Source: a virus
Virus record (IMG/VR): IMGVR_UViG_3300017917_001996
Location: 186,001-250,000 of that record
Length of the DNA: 64,000 bases
Reading direction: 5' to 3' (one strand)
The position numbers and the translations under genes were made by a program. Positions 24,142 through 63,067 of the stretch are shown piece after piece. The notes beneath the pieces were generated by a model that had not been told where the DNA came from, did not search any database, and saw only the letters and a list, made by a program, of their open reading frames with translations. Position 1 is the stretch's first letter, and every line of letters starts with the position of its first letter.

Positions 24142-25752
24142 ATGGCCGATATTTTTTCTGATTTAGCTAACTTTGCTGGAGACACTCTAAGGCAGGTGAT
24201 TACTCCTGACAATGTCAGGGATTATACTCATGCCAGTAAGTTGTTTGTTGGCGACCAGTATAGACTAGTTCCAAAGAACGGCTTTCTGTTTCACGTATTC
24301 ATTGATATTAATAATCCCTACCTAGACTTTCAAAATCCAAACTCACTAAGTGAAGTAGGTCTTATGGTTAAGAGTGCGGATCTACCGAGATTTACCGTTG
24401 AAACAAAAACACTCAATGCCTATAACAGACCAAACATTGTACAAAATAAAATTCGTTACGATCCTATAACAATTGCATTCCATGACGACAGTAATAACCT
24501 AATTCGTAATTTTTGGTCATCGTACATGAAGTATTACTACAGAGATAGTGATTACGCAGAGAATTCTTATGCTATCCCACACAAGTATTCACCACAACAA
24601 CTTAGTGGCTTTGGTTATTCGCCGCAACAGACTGCGCCTTATTTAAAGTGTATTCGTTTATATAGTTTGCATCAAAAGAGATTCAGTGAATACATTCTTA
24701 TTAATCCTATAATTAAGTCGATGAGACATGGTTCACATGCCCAGGATAAAATGGAAACTATGCAACATGAGATGACCATCGAATACGAAGCAGTTTTGTA
24801 CAACAGTGGTCGTACTTCTTTGGGTAACCCTAAAGGATTTGCTTTGTTACACTATGACACAATGCCAAGTCCAATTACCGGAGCAGGTGGTGGAGCAAGA
24901 TCGATATTTGGCCCAGGCGGTCTAATAGACACTGGCAAAGATGTTTTAGATGATATAAGTAATGGTAACTTTGGATCTGCGATATTCAAGGCAGCACGTG
25001 GTATTAACAATGCACGTGGTATGAATCTAAAAACCACTGCTATTACAGAGATAACAGATGCATTTAACCGCAGTATCAGGGAAAGTGTGACTTCTCAAAG
25101 AATTATGGTACCCAATATGACAGGGACATCTGGTATTGTTAATTCACCTTACAGTGGAATTGGAGTTAGCAATGCTGTGGCTGCTCTCGCTGGTGTTGTT
25201 GCTATCAGAGAAACAAGAGTTCCGGAACCGTTGAACAATCAACGCATCAATGACATACGACAGTCTACAGCCAGTGAGTATTCGTCGCAACTTACAAATT
25301 ATAAAAAAACCTTTCCTCCTAATCCTGGTATAGTTGCCAGTGCAAGTAATACAGGATCGTTGACGTTGCTCAATGACCAAAATACAATAAGACCGATTGG
25401 AGTTCAAGGTACAATTAACGAGACTACTCGAAAACAACAATTAGATAATAATATTAAATCAGCATCGGATGCAGTTACCAACGCCACTGTAGAATTAGCC
25501 AGAGCTAAGAATCAAGAAGCTAATGCCACTGCTGCTATAAGCATGTTAAACATAAAATTAAATGCAGCTCGTGCATTACCTTTATACAATCCTAGTAGAG
25601 AAGGCCTAATTCAACAATTAACACAAAGCATCGAACAGCAACAAAAAATTAAAGAAGATGCTGCTGCATTGGTTGCTACACTGACTGCCAAGCTGGCATT
25701 GCTAACACAAAAATTACAGGCTTTGAAATCTGAAAAGGATGCAATAAGATAA
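24142..25752 (+). CDS. Tail-tube-like baseplate protein with coiled-coil tail
   Basis: 536 residues. The N-terminal 230 residues look like a second tube-fold protein: FLFHVFIDINNPYL, LMVKSADLPRFTVETKTLNAYNRPN, KIRYDPITIAFHDDSNNLIRNFWSSYM. This type in T4-like phages probably corresponds to the tube initiator/baseplate hub-tube proteins (gp48/gp54 role), though I cannot assign which. About 250-420 is low-complexity. Residues 420-536 form a long alanine/glutamine-rich coiled coil, which could act in trimer assembly or length control. The stop overlaps the next start. Confidence 0.7.
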   Translation: MADIFSDLANFAGDTLRQVITPDNVRDYTHASKLFVGDQYRLVPKNGFLFHVFIDINNPYLDFQNPNSLSEVGLMVKSADLPRFTVETKTLNAYNRPNIVQNKIRYDPITIAFHDDSNNLIRNFWSSYMKYYYRDSDYAENSYAIPHKYSPQQLSGFGYSPQQTAPYLKCIRLYSLHQKRFSEYILINPIIKSMRHGSHAQDKMETMQHEMTIEYEAVLYNSGRTSLGNPKGFALLHYDTMPSPITGAGGGARSIFGPGGLIDTGKDVLDDISNGNFGSAIFKAARGINNARGMNLKTTAITEITDAFNRSIRESVTSQRIMVPNMTGTSGIVNSPYSGIGVSNAVAALAGVVAIRETRVPEPLNNQRINDIRQSTASEYSSQLTNYKKTFPPNPGIVASASNTGSLTLLNDQNTIRPIGVQGTINETTRKQQLDNNIKSASDAVTNATVELARAKNQEANATAAISMLNIKLNAARALPLYNPSREGLIQQLTQSIEQQQKIKEDAAALVATLTAKLALLTQKLQALKSEKDAIR

Positions 25753-26132
25753 TGGCAACAAAACCGTCAAACTTAACTTCAGTAAATGCAGTAGAAATTA
25801 CATCTGGACAAGTTCCTTCATTTTTTAATAATTTCTATCAACCTGCCTATTCAGTGTCTCAGAATGTTGACGATGCTGTGCTAGCATTTTTTGAAAAAAT
25901 AACAGATGGACGTGAAGCTGCTAAAATTATGGCCAGTGCAGTTATCTATACTAGTTTGGCACAAAACATAGATCCATTGGAAACACTGCAAAAGTTTTCT
26001 ACTATGTCGTCGGAAGACTTAAATTCTTATGTAGCCATGTTCTTAAACTTAAACAGAGTTGGCACAAGCTACTTAGGAATTAATAATCGCCCACGTACAG
26101 GAAAATACGTGGCAAGAATGATTCGTCCATGA
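25752..26132 (+). CDS. Conserved T4-like structural/assembly protein, unknown
   Basis: 126 residues, helical. Phrases such as DDAVLAFFEKITDG, LAQNIDPLETLQKF, MFLNLNRVGTSYLG and RPRTGKYVARMI look typical of a small family next to the head-completion gene in marine T4-like phages, I believe without a known role. It starts at the last base of the preceding stop and ends in an ATGA overlap with gene 4, so it is late and probably concerns tail or head completion. Confidence 0.7.
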   Translation: MATKPSNLTSVNAVEITSGQVPSFFNNFYQPAYSVSQNVDDAVLAFFEKITDGREAAKIMASAVIYTSLAQNIDPLETLQKFSTMSSEDLNSYVAMFLNLNRVGTSYLGINNRPRTGKYVARMIRP

Positions 26133-52964: not shown

Positions 52965-54092
52965 ATGCAAAAACAGTCTTTTCGTTACCTAGAAGATTAT
53001 ATTGAATACCTTGCTGGATTCCCTATGACTAATAATGTTAGGCCGGGTACAGTGAGCTTGGCTAGATACGACACGCAGATTGTTGCTAGTATTGCAAACC
53101 AAACGTTCAATGGTACCGGCTTCAGTGATCGACAAGCCCTACTAGCTCATAAGTTGGTAGTAAAGTATAAAAGGCAATTTGCCAACAATGGAATTCTAAT
53201 TGGCGAACATGAAGAAGACCCAAAGTTTCGATTACCACTTAGACAAGTTGATCGTTCTAAAATTATTACCCTTAATGATAAAAAAATTGTTGTACGTTTT
53301 CCCTACGACGTTAAAATGATTGATGCTCTACGAGAGTATGGTAAAAAGATTCCCAGCGAGTTGAGATTTAACAAACCCAATCGACAGTGGGAAGCTGACA
53401 TTACTGAACCAAGAGTTCTTTGGGCCTGCGAGTTTGCTGATAAATATGAGTTTGAGATTGATACGGTATTGCTAGAGCTTAGAGAAAAGATCGATCATTG
53501 CCAACAAATAAGGTATGCCATTGAGCTGGATTATGTTGACAATCAGATAGTTATTTCTAATGCTGAGTCTAGTCTATTAGATTATATTAACAGCAACGTT
53601 GGTGGACTTGGCAAAGACAATCTACTAAACTTAATTGACCAAAGTAGCATTTTAGGCTACACGGTTAGTGAAAAGATCATTACACTCTATGACTTCGGCC
53701 AAGTTGACAAAAGGTTAGCACTAAAGAAAGAAAGTCATTTTCCTTGGAATGACGAAGGCAGCTTTGAAAAAATCGTAGACTATGCTGAATGGTCGCAAAG
53801 ATATCCTATATTTGTTTTTGATCCATTGAACGAAAATAAACCTAATAACCCAGTCCTTGAAAAATTAAAAAATCATTTTAAAGACGAGTTAGAAGTAGTC
53901 GGCGCTCGACAAAAACGTATCGATTACCAAAATAAGAAGTGTGTATACTTAACCCACTGGCATTCTAGCTGGCAAATGAAGATTCCTTTGCTGGTTACAC
54001 TAACAGGGCTAATGGTTGGGTTAAAGAAACAACACATACTTCAGCACTCAGAAAAGATTGTATTTTCTTCTGAGATTCTCTATAATCCATAA
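52965..54092 (+). CDS. Conserved protein upstream of UvsW, HARP-like segment
   Basis: 375 residues. IVVRFPYDVKMIDALREYGKK and SELRFNKPNRQWEADITEPRV resemble the HARP domain found beside SNF2-type helicases. No Walker motif is seen. It directly precedes uvsW (one base between stop and next ATG), so it may be a partner that remodels forks. Predicted leaderless. Confidence 0.6.
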   Translation: MQKQSFRYLEDYIEYLAGFPMTNNVRPGTVSLARYDTQIVASIANQTFNGTGFSDRQALLAHKLVVKYKRQFANNGILIGEHEEDPKFRLPLRQVDRSKIITLNDKKIVVRFPYDVKMIDALREYGKKIPSELRFNKPNRQWEADITEPRVLWACEFADKYEFEIDTVLLELREKIDHCQQIRYAIELDYVDNQIVISNAESSLLDYINSNVGGLGKDNLLNLIDQSSILGYTVSEKIITLYDFGQVDKRLALKKESHFPWNDEGSFEKIVDYAEWSQRYPIFVFDPLNENKPNNPVLEKLKNHFKDELEVVGARQKRIDYQNKKCVYLTHWHSSWQMKIPLLVTLTGLMVGLKKQHILQHSEKIVFSSEILYNP

Positions 54093-54093
54093 T

Positions 54094-55587
54094 ATGCCTG
54101 AATGTATACTAGAAATACTTGACGAAGTAAACGTAAAAATTAAAGGGTTGGATTTAGACAGCCGTCGCCAACTAGTCAATCGATATAAATTTGAAATTCC
54201 TGGAGCAAGGTATTTGCCTGCTGTACGTCTAGGTCGTTGGGATGGCAAAGTAAGTTATTTTCAACTCAGTGGCAGTACTTATATTAACCTGTTGCCGGAA
54301 ATTTTACCTTGGTTAGAAGAACGGGGCTACAATGTTGAACTAGAAGATCAACGTGATTATCGCACACAGTTCAGCTTTGAGCAAGTACACGAAAAAAGTT
54401 TTGAGCACATACTGTGGCCCAAAGGACATCCTGCTGAAGGAAAGCCTATCATGCTACGTGACTACCAAGTTGAGGTAGTTAATAAGTTCTTGTCCAATCC
54501 ACAGTGTATACAGGAAATCGCCACTGGTGCTGGTAAGACAATTATGACTGCTGCCTTGAGCAATGCAGTTAGTCCTTATGGCCGTAGCATTGTTATTGTA
54601 CCTAACAAAGACCTAGTTCGCCAAACAGAAAAAGACTACATTAACATGCAACTGGATGTTGGTGTTTACTTTGGCGACCGCAAAGAATACAATAGGCGGC
54701 ACACTATCTGCACTTGGCAAAGTCTTAATGTTATGCTTAAGAATACCAAGAACCACGAAGCAGAAGTTACTATACACGAATTCTTAGAGGATGTAGTGTG
54801 CGTGATCGTTGACGAAGTGCACATGGCCAAGGCTGATGTACTTAAACAACTGCTAACAGGTCCTATGTCTCGAGTGCCGCTACGTTGGGGTCTAACTGGT
54901 ACAATACCCAAAGAGAAATATGAATTTATGAGCTTGTTCTGTAGTATTGGACAAGTCATTGGACGTCTCAGAGCCAGCGAACTGCAAGAGCAAGGTGTGC
55001 TGGCGCAGTGCCATGTTAACATTGTTCAGTTAGTTGAGTATGCAGAATACAGCAACTATCAAAGCGAATTGAAGTACTTGCTGGAAAACGATAAAAGAAT
55101 CGCTTACATCAGTAAGATGATCAGCAGAATCAAGGATTCGGGTAACACATTGATTCTAGTGGACAGGATTGGTGCAGGCAAGGCATTACAAGCTCATCTC
55201 AGCTCGTTGTTTAGTGTATTAAAAGATGCACCCGACGTAGTGTTTATTTCGGGCAGTACCAAGTCTGCTGATCGTCAAGATGAATACGAACAAGTTAGCA
55301 CAGCAAATAACAAGGTTATGATTGCTACCTACGGTGTAGCTGCTGTGGGCATTAACATTCCACGAATTTTCAATCTAGTGCTAATTGAGCCTGGCAAGAG
55401 CTTTGTGCGTGTTATCCAAAGTATCGGGCGTGGCATTCGTAAAGCCGAAGACAAAGACTTTGTACAGATCTGGGACATTACCAGCACCTGCAAGTTTGCC
55501 AAGAGACACCTAACACAGAGAAAGAACTTTTACAAAGAAGCCAACTATCCATTTACCATAGACAAAGTTGACTATCAAAAACAATAA
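54094..55587 (+). CDS. uvsW: UvsW RNA-DNA/branch-migration helicase
   Basis: 497 residues, SF2. N-terminal double-strand-binding domain (YLPAVRLGRWDGKVSYF), motif I ATGAGKT (143-149), motif II DEVH (240-243), motif III TGT (268-270), motif V/VI with VGINIP and QSIGRGIRK. In T4 it unwinds R-loops, switches origin- to recombination-dependent replication and migrates Holliday junctions. ATG at 54094 chosen; 54058 would overlap the previous gene. Confidence 0.92.
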   Translation: MPECILEILDEVNVKIKGLDLDSRRQLVNRYKFEIPGARYLPAVRLGRWDGKVSYFQLSGSTYINLLPEILPWLEERGYNVELEDQRDYRTQFSFEQVHEKSFEHILWPKGHPAEGKPIMLRDYQVEVVNKFLSNPQCIQEIATGAGKTIMTAALSNAVSPYGRSIVIVPNKDLVRQTEKDYINMQLDVGVYFGDRKEYNRRHTICTWQSLNVMLKNTKNHEAEVTIHEFLEDVVCVIVDEVHMAKADVLKQLLTGPMSRVPLRWGLTGTIPKEKYEFMSLFCSIGQVIGRLRASELQEQGVLAQCHVNIVQLVEYAEYSNYQSELKYLLENDKRIAYISKMISRIKDSGNTLILVDRIGAGKALQAHLSSLFSVLKDAPDVVFISGSTKSADRQDEYEQVSTANNKVMIATYGVAAVGINIPRIFNLVLIEPGKSFVRVIQSIGRGIRKAEDKDFVQIWDITSTCKFAKRHLTQRKNFYKEANYPFTIDKVDYQKQ

Positions 55588-56120: not shown

Positions 56121-56579
56121 ATGAGTGATAAACTAAACATTGCCAACGAAATGCGAGCCTTTGATAACAAGGATCGCGGTTTCTATGATAGCCTAACTGA
56201 AGAAGAACGCAAGAAGTTCAGCACCTACTTAATGCTCAAGTGGGGCGCCAACGTAGAAGGCAGTCCCGAATTGCAAGAATGGTATTTGCGTGTGGTCAAT
56301 GATCGTGTAAATCTTAACTTTTTTGATTTAGGAAGACATCCTAAGTTGCAGTGGCTTCTGTGTACAACGGTGAGCCCTGGGCTAGGAGTAAAACGTCACT
56401 ATTGGATTACTTCCAAGCGTGGTAGTACCAGCAAAGCATATAAGTTTATTGAAAAACAATATCCTCATCTTAAACCCGATGAAATTGAACTGATGTTGCA
56501 GATCAACAGTCCAGATCAAATTAAGAGTTATGCACGAGCATTGGGTTGGGATGATAAACAGATCAAATCTGAGCTATGA
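56121..56579 (+). CDS. Conserved T4-like protein, unknown (152 aa)
   Basis: Contains ERKKFSTYLMLKWGANVEG, LNFFDLGRHPKLQWLLCTTV and YPHLKPDEIELMLQI, phrases I associate with an early-region protein of marine T4-like phages. I could not settle its role (clamp-loader or transcription factor partner considered). The stop overlaps the next ATG. Confidence 0.6.
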   Translation: MSDKLNIANEMRAFDNKDRGFYDSLTEEERKKFSTYLMLKWGANVEGSPELQEWYLRVVNDRVNLNFFDLGRHPKLQWLLCTTVSPGLGVKRHYWITSKRGSTSKAYKFIEKQYPHLKPDEIELMLQINSPDQIKSYARALGWDDKQIKSEL

Positions 56580-57280
56580 TTGTGGCAGAACCTGTAGTCA
56601 AATATACTTGTAAATTTTGTGGGAAGAGTTTTTCAAAAGAAACTACACTGATCTCTCACGTCTGTGAAAAGAAGCGCAGAGCACAACAAGAAAAAGAAGT
56701 CGGCGTACAGCTAGGTCTGCAAGCCTACTTGATGTTCTATCAAAGTACCCAAGCAGGCACTAAAAATAAAACGTATCAAGACTTTGCGGAAAGTCCATAC
56801 TATACTGCATTTGTAAAGTTTGGGCGCTATTGTGTGTCTATTAAGTGTATTAACTTTGCATCATTTACTCGCTGGCTACTACAGAACAACAAAAAGTTAG
56901 ACTACTGGTGTTCAGATAAGTTGTATGAAGAATGGATGGCAGAATACTTAAAGCGAGAGCCTGCACAAGATGCACTGGAACGAGCCATCAAGGAGATAAC
57001 CGAGTATGCAGAAGATCATCCAGAGCTTAAAAACGGCTTTCGGGATTACTTTAGGTATGCTAATAGTAATCGAATTTGTCATCATATCTGTAGCGGCAGG
57101 ATTAGTCCTTGGGTGGTGTTTAACTGCGCTAGTGGGGTAGAGTTTGTTGAGCGATTACCAGCAAATCAAGTTAACCTACTGTTACCGTGGATTGACCCAA
57201 CATACTGGAACGGGTTTTTTAAAGATAATCCCAACGATGTTCAATGGGCTAGGAGCATCTTAGCAGCAGCAGGATTATAA
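56576..57280 (+). CDS. C2H2 zinc-finger protein conserved in T4-like phages
   Basis: 234 residues. A C2H2/C2HC finger at 11-30 (YTCKFCGKSFSKETTLISHVC) is followed by a helical domain with AYLMFYQ, ESPYYTAFVKFGRY, RISPWVVFNCASGVEF and WIDPTYWNGFF. A DNA-binding regulatory role is inferred. Confidence 0.65.
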   Translation: MIVAEPVVKYTCKFCGKSFSKETTLISHVCEKKRRAQQEKEVGVQLGLQAYLMFYQSTQAGTKNKTYQDFAESPYYTAFVKFGRYCVSIKCINFASFTRWLLQNNKKLDYWCSDKLYEEWMAEYLKREPAQDALERAIKEITEYAEDHPELKNGFRDYFRYANSNRICHHICSGRISPWVVFNCASGVEFVERLPANQVNLLLPWIDPTYWNGFFKDNPNDVQWARSILAAAGL

Positions 57281-57281
57281 T

Positions 57282-57659
57282 ATGTCACAACTTAAAACAT
57301 GTGCCAAGTGCAATGAAACAAAAACGCTGGCTGAATTCTGCAAAGCCAGCGGCGGCAACTACTATAGATCCGAGTGCAGGGCGTGTGAAAAAGCATTAGC
57401 TAAAGTCAGAAAGCAAATTAAAGAATCTGCGCCACCGGTACCAGATAACTATTCCTGCCCTATATGCAATAGAACCGAAGCTGAAGTAAAAGGCCGCGGA
57501 GGTAAGAAGTCAGGTACATGGTGTTGTGATCATGATCATGTAACTAACAAGTTCCGGGGGTGGTTGTGTCATCAATGCAATAGAGCATTGGGCGGAATGA
57601 ATGACAGTGTCGATCGACTAAAAAATTCAATTAAGTATTTGGAAAGTTCAAGGAAATGA
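57282..57659 (+). CDS. 49: Recombination endonuclease VII
   Basis: 125 residues. His-Me finger core: CPIC (59-62), DHDH (83-86), RGWLCHQCN (Cys 96, 99; Asn 100). An additional zinc pair at the N-terminus (CAKC, CRAC). Resolves Holliday junctions and branched DNA before packaging. Overlaps the next gene by four bases. Confidence 0.85.
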   Translation: MSQLKTCAKCNETKTLAEFCKASGGNYYRSECRACEKALAKVRKQIKESAPPVPDNYSCPICNRTEAEVKGRGGKKSGTWCCDHDHVTNKFRGWLCHQCNRALGGMNDSVDRLKNSIKYLESSRK

Positions 57660-58252
57660 AATTCACCAGTGACGTTGATATAGACTTTGCAGATAGACAA
57701 AAAGTCTTAAGTTTAATCCGGCATGTGCCTGCGACTATAGCTGAAGGTACAGATCGTACAGCACACAATACTGGAATTTACGTTACTGACATTCCTGTAG
57801 ACCCATTTACAGGGCGTAGTGCAATAGATTATCGAGAAGCTGAACGTCGTGGTTATATTAAGCTAGACTTTCTTAATGTTGGGTTATATAACCAAGTTAA
57901 AGACGAATCGCATTTGCTAGAACTTATGCACCGCGAGCCACCTTGGCACAGGCTCTACGAGCCGGAGTTTTGTTCACAGTTGATCCACGTGAACAATCAT
58001 TATGATACACTGATTAAAATGCCCGAGGCTGTTAACAGTATTCCTAGGCTAGCTATGTTCTTGGCTATCATCCGCCCTTCTAAGCGACATCTAATAGGTA
58101 AGACTTGGGCAGAAGTTGCTCGGACTATATGGGACAAGCCCACGGATAACAGCTACTACTTTAAAAAGAGCCATAGCGTAGGCTACAGTCATCTAGTAGT
58201 AGTTAATATGAATTTGTTGGATCTAAACGGTCTTACGAATCAAGGTAATTGA
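57656..58252 (+). CDS. Miniature DnaE/PolC-like protein (198 aa)
   Basis: The order of motifs follows the bacterial Pol III alpha palm: SDVDIDF (residues 5-11; cf. PDFDVDF), HNTGIYVT (37-44; cf. KHAGGVVI), IKLDFLNVGL (68-77; cf. VKFDFLGL) and FKKSHSVGYSHL near 175 (cf. FNKSHAAAYAL). The three polymerase Asp positions correspond to D8, D10 and D71. PHP, finger and beta-binding parts are missing; intact DnaE exceeds 1000 residues. It may be a regulator, a primer-end binder or an enzyme of different specificity. Resembles, I believe, an unnamed protein of marine T4-like phages. Confidence 0.65.
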   Translation: MKFTSDVDIDFADRQKVLSLIRHVPATIAEGTDRTAHNTGIYVTDIPVDPFTGRSAIDYREAERRGYIKLDFLNVGLYNQVKDESHLLELMHREPPWHRLYEPEFCSQLIHVNNHYDTLIKMPEAVNSIPRLAMFLAIIRPSKRHLIGKTWAEVARTIWDKPTDNSYYFKKSHSVGYSHLVVVNMNLLDLNGLTNQGN

Positions 58253-58594
58253 CCGACGCTTACTGCGTTTTGATGCTATCTCTTTGAGATTAATCTGAGG
58301 TCCCATGCGGATCTCAACGTCTTTGCTGTTCATAGTTTTAACGCAAAACTTGAATTCAGCCCATTCTTTCTTTAGGAAAACGTTAATAGGAATTATCCTA
58401 TTGCTTTCCCACCACCATTGCTCTCCTAATTCTAGGAAACGCTTCTTCTGTTCAGGGAACTTTATACTACCAAAGTCGTAAATGGTAGTGATTTGCTCAT
58501 CGGAATTTTGTATGATTCCGATGTATTCGTTGCCCCCGTAAACCAAATAGGTTATAAAAGGGTACCGTGCGAGTAAGGGTTCGATTTCTTCCAC
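58223..58594 (-). CDS. Conserved T4-like protein, minus strand (123 aa)
   Basis: Starts MEEIEPLLARYPFITYLVYG, NEYIGIIQNSDE, RFLELGEQWWWESNRIIPIN, ending in a basic tail (KEIASKRSKRRS). I associate this pattern with marine T4-like phages; function unknown. Converges with the preceding gene by 30 bases and diverges from the fibre operon. Confidence 0.7.
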   Translation of the reverse strand: MEEIEPLLARYPFITYLVYGGNEYIGIIQNSDEQITTIYDFGSIKFPEQKKRFLELGEQWWWESNRIIPINVFLKKEWAEFKFCVKTMNSKDVEIRMGPQINLKEIASKRSKRRSITLIRKTV

Positions 58595-58613: not shown

Positions 58614-59108
58614 ATGATAACAATCTATTTATATCCAAATATAATTGACGTTCAATTTTGGGACGTAACTCTTTTCAGTGCAAGGAACCAATATATGTAT
58701 GCTAAACCTGTAGTCGTGTACCAAGGAATTGACAATCCTCTGCAGGTTCGCGTCAAGAACCAGGAGCAAACTCCGGTGAACATGACACCGTATTTACTGC
58801 AGGCCGAAATACAAGACCCTGATAGTTTCCTAACAGTAGAATCCTTTGGTATTCAATTTCAAAATGTTACCAAGGGTATAGGAACATTTGTAATCCCAAA
58901 AGATTTAGTAAATGGTTTAGAGCAGCGACGTTACAAGTTAACGTTTAAAGCTATAAACAAATCAAGCAACCAAGAACAGCCAGCATATATTGACCACAAT
59001 TATATGGTTCCGATGGATTTAATAGTGTTACCTGGTTATTATTCGACAATGCCTCCGGATGCCGAGGAAACCGACGACTTCTTAAAAATTGATGGTGGAA
59101 CAATATGA
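58614..59108 (+). CDS. Tail-fibre-associated protein (164 aa), Ig-like
   Basis: Beta-rich protein with the pattern of a BppU N-terminal/Ig-like domain (VVYQGIDNPLQVRVKNQEQTPVNMTPY, AEIQDP). Comes directly before the fibre gene with an ATGA overlap, so it probably attaches fibres to the baseplate. Not assigned to a T4 gene. Confidence 0.6.
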   Translation: MITIYLYPNIIDVQFWDVTLFSARNQYMYAKPVVVYQGIDNPLQVRVKNQEQTPVNMTPYLLQAEIQDPDSFLTVESFGIQFQNVTKGIGTFVIPKDLVNGLEQRRYKLTFKAINKSSNQEQPAYIDHNYMVPMDLIVLPGYYSTMPPDAEETDDFLKIDGGTI

Positions 59109-62100
59109 GCTTAAACAACCAAGTTTTAAATTTAGATGCAAGACAGATCCTTTTAAAAAGAGGAAATGCAATAGTTAGCCAAGGTTACGTGGGTCCAATT
59201 GGCGAAATAACTTTAGATACAACTCTTAATACACTACGTATTCACGACGGTGTTACACCCGGCGGTACTATTATTCCTACTGCTGCTAACGTTGCAGCCG
59301 AAGTCACTGATGCAGTTAATGTAATTGGCGGAACTACTATTTCGGGACAGATTGCTACAGCACTTTTACCAGTATATGCAAATATTGCATTAGTAAATGC
59401 AAATGTATCTAGTTTAATTGGCAATGGCCCAACAACACTTAACACTCTAGCAGAATTGGCTGCTGCGGTTGATAACGATCCAGATTTTGGTGCTAAAGTT
59501 TTGCTAGCATTAACACAGGTACGTGCCAATGTTACCAATGAAGTTAACCGTGCAATTAACGCTGAACAAGTATTACAAACAGCGATCAATAATGAAGTTT
59601 CGGCTAGAACCGCAGCAAATGCAGTATTAGTCAGTTTGATAGGCACCCAATCTAACGCATATATTGCTGCTGACAGCGTACTTCAAAATAATATTAACAC
59701 AGAATCCGGATTACGAGTTGCTGCTTTTAATCAATTACAAACTGATATTAGTAATGAGGCTACTGCAAGATCTTCTGCTGACACAGCATTACAAGGCAAT
59801 ATCATTGCTGAAGCCACTGCAAGAGCTTCTGCAGATACAACACTGCAAACAAATATCAACAACGAAGCAACAACAAGATCTTCTGCTGATGCAGCACTCC
59901 AAGCAAACATTGATTCGTTGAACAATAGTTTATCAACTGTTGCTAAAACTGGTTTGTATTCAGACCTTTCCGGTAAGCCAACTCTATTAAGTCAGTTTAC
60001 CAATGATACAAATTTTGCAAACGTTTCTTATGTTGACACGCAAATTTCCAACATAATAAATGGTGCACCGTCAACTCTGGATACCTTAAAAGAAATTGGT
60101 GATGCATTCCAGTCAGCTGACGGTAATCTACTAGCAGCAATAAATTCTCTAACCAGCTCGAGCTCTTCGACAGTTGATGCCGAAGAAGCAGCTCGAATTG
60201 CAGCAGATACTGCTCTCCAGGCAAACATCGATGCTGAGACTACTGCTCGTATTTCTGCAGATACAACACTGCAAACAAATATCAACAACGAAGCAACAGC
60301 TCGTCTAAATGCAGACGCAGCGTTACAAGGTAATATTGATGCAGAAGCTACTGCTCGTATTGCAGTAGATACTGCACTACAAGGAAACATTTCTGCTGAA
60401 GTTACCGCTCGCACTGTGGCAGATACTGCACTACAAGGCAATATTGATGCAGAAGCTACAGCACGTACTAGTGCAGATACCACTTTACAGACTAACATTA
60501 ATAATGAAGCTACCACTAGGGCAAATGCAGATATAGAATTACAAGGTAATATTATTGCTGAAGAGACAGCCCGAATTGCAGCCGACTTGTCATTGCAAGG
60601 AAATATTACTGCCGAAACTACTGCACGTATTGCAGCAGATTCTGCATTGCAGGCTAATATTACTGCTGAGGAAACAGCCCGCATTGCTGCCGACACAGCA
60701 CTACAAGGAAACATTACTGCTGAAATTAGTGCAAGAGTAAGTGCCGATACTGCACTACAGGGTAACATAACTGCCGAAGAAACAGCAAGAATTGCAGCCG
60801 ATACAGCACTGCAAGGAAATATTACTGCTGAAGCTACTGCTCGTTCTAGTGCCGACACTACATTGCAGACAAACATTAACAATGAAGCCACTGCAAGAGC
60901 AAATGCTGATACTGCACTACAAGGCAATATTGATGCAGAAGCTACAGCACGTATTGCAGCAGACTCTGCATTGCAAGCAAATATTGAGGCAGAAGCAACG
61001 GCTCGTCAGTCTTTACAATCAAATTTACAAAGTCAAATTAATAACATCATTAGTAATGTTGACCCTGGTGCCTTAGACAGCTTAACGGAGATCGTTACAG
61101 CATTCCAAGGTTCTGATGGTAATATTATAACGGCACTTAATACGTTAAGTTCTGGCACAGGCTCTAATATTGCTGCTGAAGCTAATGCTCGTATTGCAAG
61201 TGACTTGTCACTACAGAGTAACATTGAAACACTAACAAATAGTCTAGCCAATGTTGCATTTACTGGAAACTATTCTGACTTATCAAATGTTCCACCAGCT
61301 CTGAATACTGGTGATGTGCAATTCCTCGACGACGAGATTTATACTCAAACAGGAAGGATGTCATTCTATACAGAAGGTGCAGTATTTCCTGAAATTAACA
61401 GAATTGACTTCAGTACAGATCAATTTGGTATTGATGTTACAGGTGAAATACAACTTTATGCTGGCACCAATCTAAGAGTTGTTACAAACAATGCTGTAAA
61501 TGGTAGAACTTGGGAATTCAAAGATACTGGATCTTTAGAACTCCCGGGCATTGAAGACGATACTACACCAGTGCTGGATTTCTTTGGTGGCCCAAGCGGC
61601 TCCTTAGGAAACCATATTGTAACACTAGCCAGCGATTGGACACTGAAAGTCAAGGCTCGTGCCGATGCTGCCAACGAAGGTCACTTATGGTTAGAAGCAG
61701 GACAGAATACCAAGATTGAAATCAATGGCTCGACTTCTAACATAAACTTAATTGCCAGCGATGGAGTGTCCACAAGCACTTGGACCTTTGATAGCAACGG
61801 TGATCTAACTGCTGCCGGTAATGTAATCAGCGGTAATGGCAGAATTAATTTTGTAGCTAACAGTTCCGGCGACGGTTACGGTTACACAACCATGGAACTA
61901 CGACCCGACACCAGTATTTCCAGCGATCAATACATTATCATTGATCCTACTGCTCCAAGCCACATACACATTCGTGCAGGCGGCACCCAGGATCAAAGTG
62001 GCGCACAGCTATTCTTAGGCGGCGAGAAAAACCACTTTACTGTTACCGATGGTGGCCTAACCAGAATGCAAACTGAGCAGCTGATGTCTACTGCTACCTA

Positions 62101-63067
62101 TAGCTTTAATACCACATTGGGCTTTAGTTCTGCGGTATGGAGCAGCGATGGATTAAATCATACGATTCTAATCACCGATCCTACTGTTGATGTTTATACA
62201 GCAGTCTGGGCATTGACCGGCGAAAGTTTAATTGAACTTTATGACGGTAACAACTATTATACTGTAACTTATAGTGGTTATGGTACTCCTGGACATCCTG
62301 CTCCTGTGACTTTAACTGTCAACGAAGCACCGCCTTCGAGTCCAATTAATCTAAATAGTATCTACATTGATATTAGACAGACTAGACAATCCTATGTTGA
62401 AGTCAATGGCACTGATATCCGTATGGAGGCCATGGACGACATCAGAATTTATAGTAACGATGTGTTTAGACTGTATAACAACTCAACAGTTGATCCAATT
62501 GAAATAATTGTTAATGCCGATGTTGGACCAGAAAAGCGATGGACGTTTAATGTTGGCGGAACAATAACCTTCCCCGACGATACAAATCAGTCAACTGCCT
62601 GGCTTGGGTCAATCGATCGAATTGAAAGCGGGTTAGCTAATGTAACTGTTGCCAACACTGGCGTAGTAAGTTTACCAGCGGTAAGCAATAGTCAGGTTAC
62701 AATTTCTGGTGCAACCAAAACTGTTAAAGGTAATCCATATTCAGTAAGAAGTGCCTATAGCAGTGAATACGAAATTTGGAAGGCCAGCTCTGAAGATGTT
62801 GTAGCAGCTAAGGTCACTGTCAGATTACACAATGACTATTATACTTACACTGAATTGTTTGATGTAATGCTAGTCAAAGAAGCAACTAACAATGCTAATG
62901 TCAGCTTTAGTGTGGGACCTAGAATTAAGTCCAATGATTCCTATCCAGACGGCGTTGTTGATGTAAGACTAAGCGACGGAAATAAACTGACCTTGTACTA
63001 TGCAAGTGTTCAAGGTGATGCCAGCTTCTACACATTTGATGCTGTTGAATTTACAAAAACTGTTTAA
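59105..63067 (+). CDS. Long tail fibre with 18-residue tandem repeats
   Basis: 1320 residues. N-terminal attachment domain (RQILLKRGNAIVSQGYVGPIGE ITLD-type; residues 14-60), then helical repeats, a SDLSGKPTLLSQFTNDTNF linker, and tandem 18-residue repeats (about 360-630) that form a coiled shaft. The C-terminal half (about 720-1320) is beta-structured with Ig/jelly-roll-like strands (TWTFDSNGDLTAAGNV) and would hold the binding tip. Trimer likely. Confidence 0.8.
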   Translation: MSLNNQVLNLDARQILLKRGNAIVSQGYVGPIGEITLDTTLNTLRIHDGVTPGGTIIPTAANVAAEVTDAVNVIGGTTISGQIATALLPVYANIALVNANVSSLIGNGPTTLNTLAELAAAVDNDPDFGAKVLLALTQVRANVTNEVNRAINAEQVLQTAINNEVSARTAANAVLVSLIGTQSNAYIAADSVLQNNINTESGLRVAAFNQLQTDISNEATARSSADTALQGNIIAEATARASADTTLQTNINNEATTRSSADAALQANIDSLNNSLSTVAKTGLYSDLSGKPTLLSQFTNDTNFANVSYVDTQISNIINGAPSTLDTLKEIGDAFQSADGNLLAAINSLTSSSSSTVDAEEAARIAADTALQANIDAETTARISADTTLQTNINNEATARLNADAALQGNIDAEATARIAVDTALQGNISAEVTARTVADTALQGNIDAEATARTSADTTLQTNINNEATTRANADIELQGNIIAEETARIAADLSLQGNITAETTARIAADSALQANITAEETARIAADTALQGNITAEISARVSADTALQGNITAEETARIAADTALQGNITAEATARSSADTTLQTNINNEATARANADTALQGNIDAEATARIAADSALQANIEAEATARQSLQSNLQSQINNIISNVDPGALDSLTEIVTAFQGSDGNIITALNTLSSGTGSNIAAEANARIASDLSLQSNIETLTNSLANVAFTGNYSDLSNVPPALNTGDVQFLDDEIYTQTGRMSFYTEGAVFPEINRIDFSTDQFGIDVTGEIQLYAGTNLRVVTNNAVNGRTWEFKDTGSLELPGIEDDTTPVLDFFGGPSGSLGNHIVTLASDWTLKVKARADAANEGHLWLEAGQNTKIEINGSTSNINLIASDGVSTSTWTFDSNGDLTAAGNVISGNGRINFVANSSGDGYGYTTMELRPDTSISSDQYIIIDPTAPSHIHIRAGGTQDQSGAQLFLGGEKNHFTVTDGGLTRMQTEQLMSTATYSFNTTLGFSSAVWSSDGLNHTILITDPTVDVYTAVWALTGESLIELYDGNNYYTVTYSGYGTPGHPAPVTLTVNEAPPSSPINLNSIYIDIRQTRQSYVEVNGTDIRMEAMDDIRIYSNDVFRLYNNSTVDPIEIIVNADVGPEKRWTFNVGGTITFPDDTNQSTAWLGSIDRIESGLANVTVANTGVVSLPAVSNSQVTISGATKTVKGNPYSVRSAYSSEYEIWKASSEDVVAAKVTVRLHNDYYTYTELFDVMLVKEATNNANVSFSVGPRIKSNDSYPDGVVDVRLSDGNKLTLYYASVQGDASFYTFDAVEFTKTV
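60179..60988 (+). repeat. Fifteen tandem 54-base repeats (18 residues each)
   Basis: In-frame units of type AEETARIAADTALQGNIT, 15 full copies and part of a 16th, with single units also near 59750-59910 and 61170. Coding repeats of the fibre shaft; the number can change by recombination. Confidence 0.9.

Follow-up and report, generated by a model that had tools for sequence, protein, structure and literature searches.

A split, minimal form of the alpha subunit of DNA polymerase III (Pol III alpha) has already been described in the 'group 2.2' jumbo phages by Iyer et al. (2021; PMC7824862), who suggested that the halves reconstitute an enzyme, that it possibly serves one-strand synthesis or repair, and that the arrangement mirrors an ancestral state. 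Before that, one piece only of such a protein had been noted in genome papers, as a 'truncated' 172-residue Pol III alpha in phage CBB (PMC5259590) and as gp316 in phage Atu_ph07 (PMC6102473). A search of the open-licence literature found no laboratory study of a split Pol III alpha. Here we describe a 198-residue protein encoded in a stretch of 64,000 nucleotides of viral DNA (the window), which comprises positions 186001-250000 of the 250,289-base IMG/VR record IMGVR_UViG_3300017917_001996. The protein is almost certainly the C-terminal half (C-half) of a Pol III alpha of this split, minimal kind. It most probably contributes metal and template binding to a minimal nucleotidyltransferase of the C family that is built from two subunits, with short accessory synthesis as its likely role.

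The 198-residue protein and its relatives

The gene and the codons of its predicted active site are as follows.

57656-58252 (243656-244252 of the record), + strand: C-half of split minimal Pol III alpha, 198 residues, with a DxD metal-binding motif, KLDFL, the fingers RP motif and FKKSH
57671-57679, + strand: codons of D6-V7-D8, the predicted catalytic aspartate pair, corresponding to D401 and D403 of E. coli DnaE (invariant in 35 of 35 aligned proteins and in 8 of 8 divergent phages)
57683-57685, + strand: codon of D10, equivalent by alignment to E. coli DnaE D405
57866-57868, + strand: codon of D71, the predicted third catalytic aspartate, equivalent to E. coli DnaE D555, in the KLDFL motif (invariant)
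58160-58189, + strand: codons 169-178, FKKSHSVGYS, equivalent to DnaE FNKSHSAAYA (E. coli 756-765) by the phrog_405 match and by hhalign

The reading frame is open over the full length given in the initial annotation, and the four motifs quoted there are all present in the order in which they occur in Pol III alpha. The C-half matched PHROG 11778, 'DNA polymerase', over residues 4-189 with an E-value of 4.5e-60, and residues 152-187 additionally matched phrog_405, the family of full-length phage Pol III alpha. By tblastn, 63 INPHARED records contained a homologue, each at below 60% identity and with 80% or more of the query covered; among the matches listed, over 590 IMG/VR stretches also carried one. 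The PHROG match and the large number of homologues therefore indicate that the C-half is not a chance observation. A Pfam scan of the C-half gave no matches, and hhalign against a profile of six DnaE sequences aligned the FNKSH segment alone (E 1.6e-4).

In several INPHARED records (for example KU574722, JN882285 and MT708547) the C-half is labelled 'putative membrane protein', which disagrees with its fold. In Agrobacterium phage Atu_ph07 (NC_042013; positions 2001-2576 of our extracted locus L284) the frame is open from 2001, and the annotated start at 2082 is internal and loses the DxD motif, so that the gene as deposited seems to have been called too short. Contigs whose labels name a Natrialbaceae archaeon and an Elusimicrobia bacterium also carry a nearly identical C-half; they are most likely misbinned phage DNA.

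Register and conservation of the active site

Across the C family the metal ligands (D401, D403 and D555 in E. coli) are absolutely conserved, whereas position 405 is a conserved Asp in DnaE and Asn in PolC (PMC3919608). In our alignment S-D6-V-D8-I-D10-F of the C-half lies against P-D401-F-D403-V-D405-F of E. coli. The catalytic pair is therefore D6/D8, and D10 is the extra aspartate of the DnaE type. The initial annotation, which had named D8, D10 and D71 as the catalytic residues, was thus right about D71 and one register off for the other two.

Ten positions of the C-half were invariant in the 35 aligned proteins: D6, D8, D10, K69, D71, R140, P141, K170, S172 and H173. Eight divergent phages, with matches down to 30% identity, also kept the first three, together with D71, the RP motif and the GRGS motif of the partner protein described below. 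In RaK2 the Ser of KKSH is replaced by Pro.

A distant gene encodes the predicted nucleotide-binding segment

When the whole record was searched with the Pol III alpha family PF07733, a match was found well away from the C-half gene, in a 173-residue open reading frame (ORF) containing WGVGRGSS.

About 25298-25819 of the record, outside the window: N-terminal half (N-half) of split minimal Pol III alpha, 173 residues, with the GRGS nucleotide-binding motif (PF07733 match)

The C-terminal end of the N-half, ...YYDLPIEEFLKETK, corresponds to ...LEFDLLFERFLNPER of DnaE; in E. coli this continues straight into ...VSMPDFDVDF. That last stretch corresponds to the start of the C-half, MKFTSDVDIDF, and the PF07733 match stops where the C-half begins. 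The N-half is a member of PHROG 11127 (E 1.4e-43). A profile of 38 N-halves, in all of which G-R-G-S is invariant, aligned with DnaE by hhalign over 152 columns (E. coli 238-396, E 5e-12). The record contains a single copy of each of the two families.

The N-half was present in 62 of the 63 phage records with a C-half. The sole record with a C-half only, PP728206, is 109 kb long, whereas relatives of that phage are about 345 kb; the sole record with an N-half only, PV245944, carries an ordinary full-length DnaE. The two genes never adjoin each other: Slicko01, an Alishewanella phage, has them 11 kb apart, RaK2 34 kb and Atu_ph07 182 kb, for example. Slicko01 and Slickus01, both Alishewanella phages of 141 kb, carry the pair, which is therefore not restricted to phages larger than 200 kb. 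A GroES-like gene followed the N-half in 89 of 96 relatives, and a gp44 clamp loader gene was near or after it in RaK2, Atu_ph07, SCTP-2 and XacN1. This gene context is evidence for a replisome role, though short of proof.

Predicted structures map the halves to adjoining parts of Pol III alpha

AlphaFold2 models were made of each half as a single chain, and were searched by Foldseek and VIA. The C-half was modelled with a predicted local distance difference test score (pLDDT) of 91 and a predicted template modelling score (pTM) of 0.80; the values for the N-half were 89.7 and 0.71. The best 11 Foldseek matches of the C-half were all Pol III alpha. In VIA its best 13 rows were all PolC or DnaE, with 187-193 of the 198 residues aligned at Z 9.7-6.3, and the next, unrelated row scored 3.5. 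The best 12 rows for the N-half were likewise all Pol III alpha (93-101 residues, Z 10.3-6.4; next row 2.2). The palm fold proposed in the initial annotation is thus supported by the model, and the C-half combines three catalytic aspartates, a predicted Pol III palm and the fourth aspartate of DnaE (D10), as expected of the C family.

On E. coli DnaE the N-half model (residues 72-173) covered 279-396 and the C-half model (1-198) covered 397-811. The corresponding ranges were 823-966 and 968-1358 on PolC, and 306-417 and 417-811 on M. tuberculosis DnaE1. As judged from the models, the two halves are consecutive parts of a single chain that neither overlap nor leave a gap to any real extent, which is the strongest single result of this analysis.

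Proposed activity of the pair

The initial annotation had remarked that T4-like phages use a family B polymerase, and a complete one is indeed encoded in the same genome (an 885-residue ORF with PF00136 and the FDIEVD and YGDTDS motifs). No PHP, HHH_6 or finger-family domain (PF02811, PF14579, PF17657) and no DnaQ-type exonuclease was found in the record, which may be incomplete. Because PHP and (HhH)2 were not found, we class the pair as the phage split form and not as an ordinary DnaE.

We propose that the C-half must pair with the 173-residue N-half encoded elsewhere in the phage. In this model the GRGS loop of the N-half would grip the incoming nucleotide by its triphosphate, and the C-half would bind, through D6, D8 and D71, the two metal ions that drive its transfer to the primer 3′ end. 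The nucleotide would be enclosed by the RP and FKKSH motifs. The pair would work beside the family B replicase in short synthesis, such as gap filling, repair or lagging-strand patches; the absence of thumb, PHP, (HhH)2, clamp-binding and tau-binding parts implies poor processivity, which makes short synthesis the most likely use. Pairing of the halves is very likely and nucleotidyl transfer by the predicted pair is likely, while templated gap-filling or accessory synthesis is our best guess at its function. The prediction of Iyer et al. (2021), made independently, also favours this proposal. Should the pair be active, its two proteins, each of about 20 kDa, would reveal the minimum required of a bacterial replicase. 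They would also account for the retention, in large T4-related phages, of a bacterial-type polymerase core alongside the family B enzyme.

Several observations weigh against this proposal. What remains of the fingers and thumb is so small that templated synthesis is not assured. The Foldseek E-values are weak by themselves (5.5e-3 for the best C-half match, and 3.2e-2), phmmer and profile searches of PDB sequences with the C-half returned no relevant chain, and the evidence on assembly consists of separate single-chain models of the halves. Among the fetched loci none had both halves together or fused, their genes lying far apart, and the literature search found no biochemical or interaction data on the two halves.

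The pair might instead be active without being a templated DNA polymerase, either adding to ends (as a terminal transferase, or in RNA or protein modification) or making primers. The spacing of its motifs is consistent with this: 98 residues separate the third aspartate motif (D71) from FKKSH (F169), compared with 201 in E. coli DnaE, and D10 and H37 are 27 residues apart compared with 106 across the E. coli thumb. Thumb and much of the fingers are thus lost and the nucleotidyltransferase core is kept. Against this, the pair retains the RP and FKKSH motifs of the fingers, whose part in Pol III alpha is in the templated reaction, and in relatives the genes nearby belong to the replisome (gp44 and gp61, for example), so that we regard a non-templated activity as doubtful.

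The initial annotation had also considered a relic turned regulator. Such a catalytically dead protein could regulate, or act as a scaffold for, the family B replicase or host Pol III, for example. Such a role would fit the loss of most Pol III alpha domains and the presence of another replicase. However, the C-half gene is under purifying selection: the ratio of nonsynonymous to synonymous substitution rates (dN/dS) among C-halves had a median of 0.098 and a maximum of 0.22 (32 pairs). This and the invariance of active-site residues therefore make a decaying relic unlikely. A scaffold would have no need for the catalytic aspartates, D10, K69, the RP motif and H173, which are invariant or nearly so, and across the sampled phages GRGS is kept in the partner; D6, D8, D71 and GRGS are invariant down to about 30% identity. 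Altogether we consider a dead relic quite improbable.

A further suggestion of the initial annotation, that the 198-residue C-half alone is a minimal enzyme, draws on its confident fold as a unit and on the presence of all three metal ligands. This chain lacks the phosphate-binding GRGS segment, however; the second gene, which occurs in the same phages, encodes that half of the active site, and a single-chain polymerase is accordingly very hard to credit. Chance likeness of short motifs, for which the lack of Pfam and PDB sequence matches might be cited, is negligible in view of the full-length structural match to PolC/DnaE and the exact complementarity with the N-half.

Neighbouring genes

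The genes around the C-half gene were compared with relatives' loci that had enough flanking sequence, 150 of them upstream; other denominators are given as they arise.

54058-55587, + strand: UvsW-like helicase (phrog_16, PF04851), farther upstream, in 81 of 150 relatives' loci
56576-57280, + strand: zinc-finger protein of 234 residues with an N-terminal C2HC finger (phrog_11058), a conserved upstream neighbour
57282-57659, + strand: endonuclease VII-like gene (PF02945), between the zinc-finger gene and the C-half gene
58223-58594, − strand: small convergent ORF (phrog_11637) overlapping the end of the C-half gene, conserved in 119 of 122 relatives

The zinc-finger gene was directly upstream of the C-half gene, and normally abutting it, in 146 of 150 relatives. 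The zinc-finger pattern itself was present in 126 of 126 relatives, and likewise in Phosso, RaK2, Atu_ph07 and Slicko01. Its product is a possible accessory factor or subunit. It was rejected as a universal partner, a different gene preceding the C-half gene in RAS14 and XacN1. The endonuclease VII gene does lie beside the palm, as the initial annotation stated, on its upstream side, but the association is not conserved: such a gene was present at only 3 of 150 loci. It is therefore a local insertion, and was rejected as a functional partner. Farther downstream, at 59105-63067, a 1320-residue ORF with many ADTALQGNIDAEATARI-type repeats probably encodes a long fibre-like structural protein.

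Possible origin of the split

In Alicyclobacillus phage KKP_3916 (OQ846916; locus L280, 2472-7020) a dnaE of the full-length type appears to be broken by two endonuclease-like ORFs. The first break is just before the DxD motif, the N exon ending ...FARFANKGRKG and the next exon reading ...TVDIDMSKRRRQ, with an endonuclease-like ORF between them, and the second is right after KMDFLG. The pieces are annotated only as hypothetical proteins. The first break is close to the split point of the jumbo-phage protein. Breakage of a normal dnaE by a homing element is therefore a possible route to the split, contrary to the ancestral view, and we regard this analogy as a lead. The minimal pair itself also bears on the question whether cores of this kind represent an ancestral state, as has been proposed, or have arisen by breakdown. 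A bolder reading, which we hold tentatively and think rather unlikely as a whole, is that the pair is a working two-piece polymerase of the replicative type. It would then be smaller than any other known enzyme of the C family, and the adjacent zinc-finger protein might act as a third subunit that guides the DNA. On this reading the split might have arisen when a homing element broke dnaE at the catalytic motif, and would not be an ancestral state predating the last universal common ancestor.

Comparison with known systems

Bacterial DnaE shares with the phage pair the palm fold, the aspartates D401/D403/D405/D555 and the GRGS, RPG and FNKSH motifs. It differs in being a single chain of 1160 residues, where the phage form has two chains of about 370 residues in total and is without the PHP, thumb, (HhH)2, OB and tau-binding domains. 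The full-length DnaE-like polymerases of Chryseobacterium phage MA9V-3, Enterococcus phage 9183, Mycobacterium phage Momo and Streptomyces phage Wakanda have the same catalytic motifs but, unlike the split pair, are single chains of about 1100-1280 residues. Two other divided phage polymerases were considered and rejected as equivalents: the 'split DNA polymerase' of phage MIJ3 is a family B polymerase split by an intein, and the polymerase pieces of Microbacterium phage MortySmith are separated by a break between PHP and palm.

The closest likeness is to the system of Iyer et al. (2021). There too the C-terminal Mg- and template-binding subdomain is a separate protein (PHROG 11778), the N-terminal NTP-binding (GRGS) subdomain is encoded by a distant gene (PHROG 11127), and a family B polymerase is present in the same genome. 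By these sequence features the present pair is almost certainly another case of the published split type, which is apparently known from prediction alone. To that description our analysis adds a different phage, the catalytic register, the complementary structural mapping and the co-occurrence count, together with the conserved zinc-finger neighbour and the presence of the pair in Alishewanella phages of 141 kb, below jumbo size.
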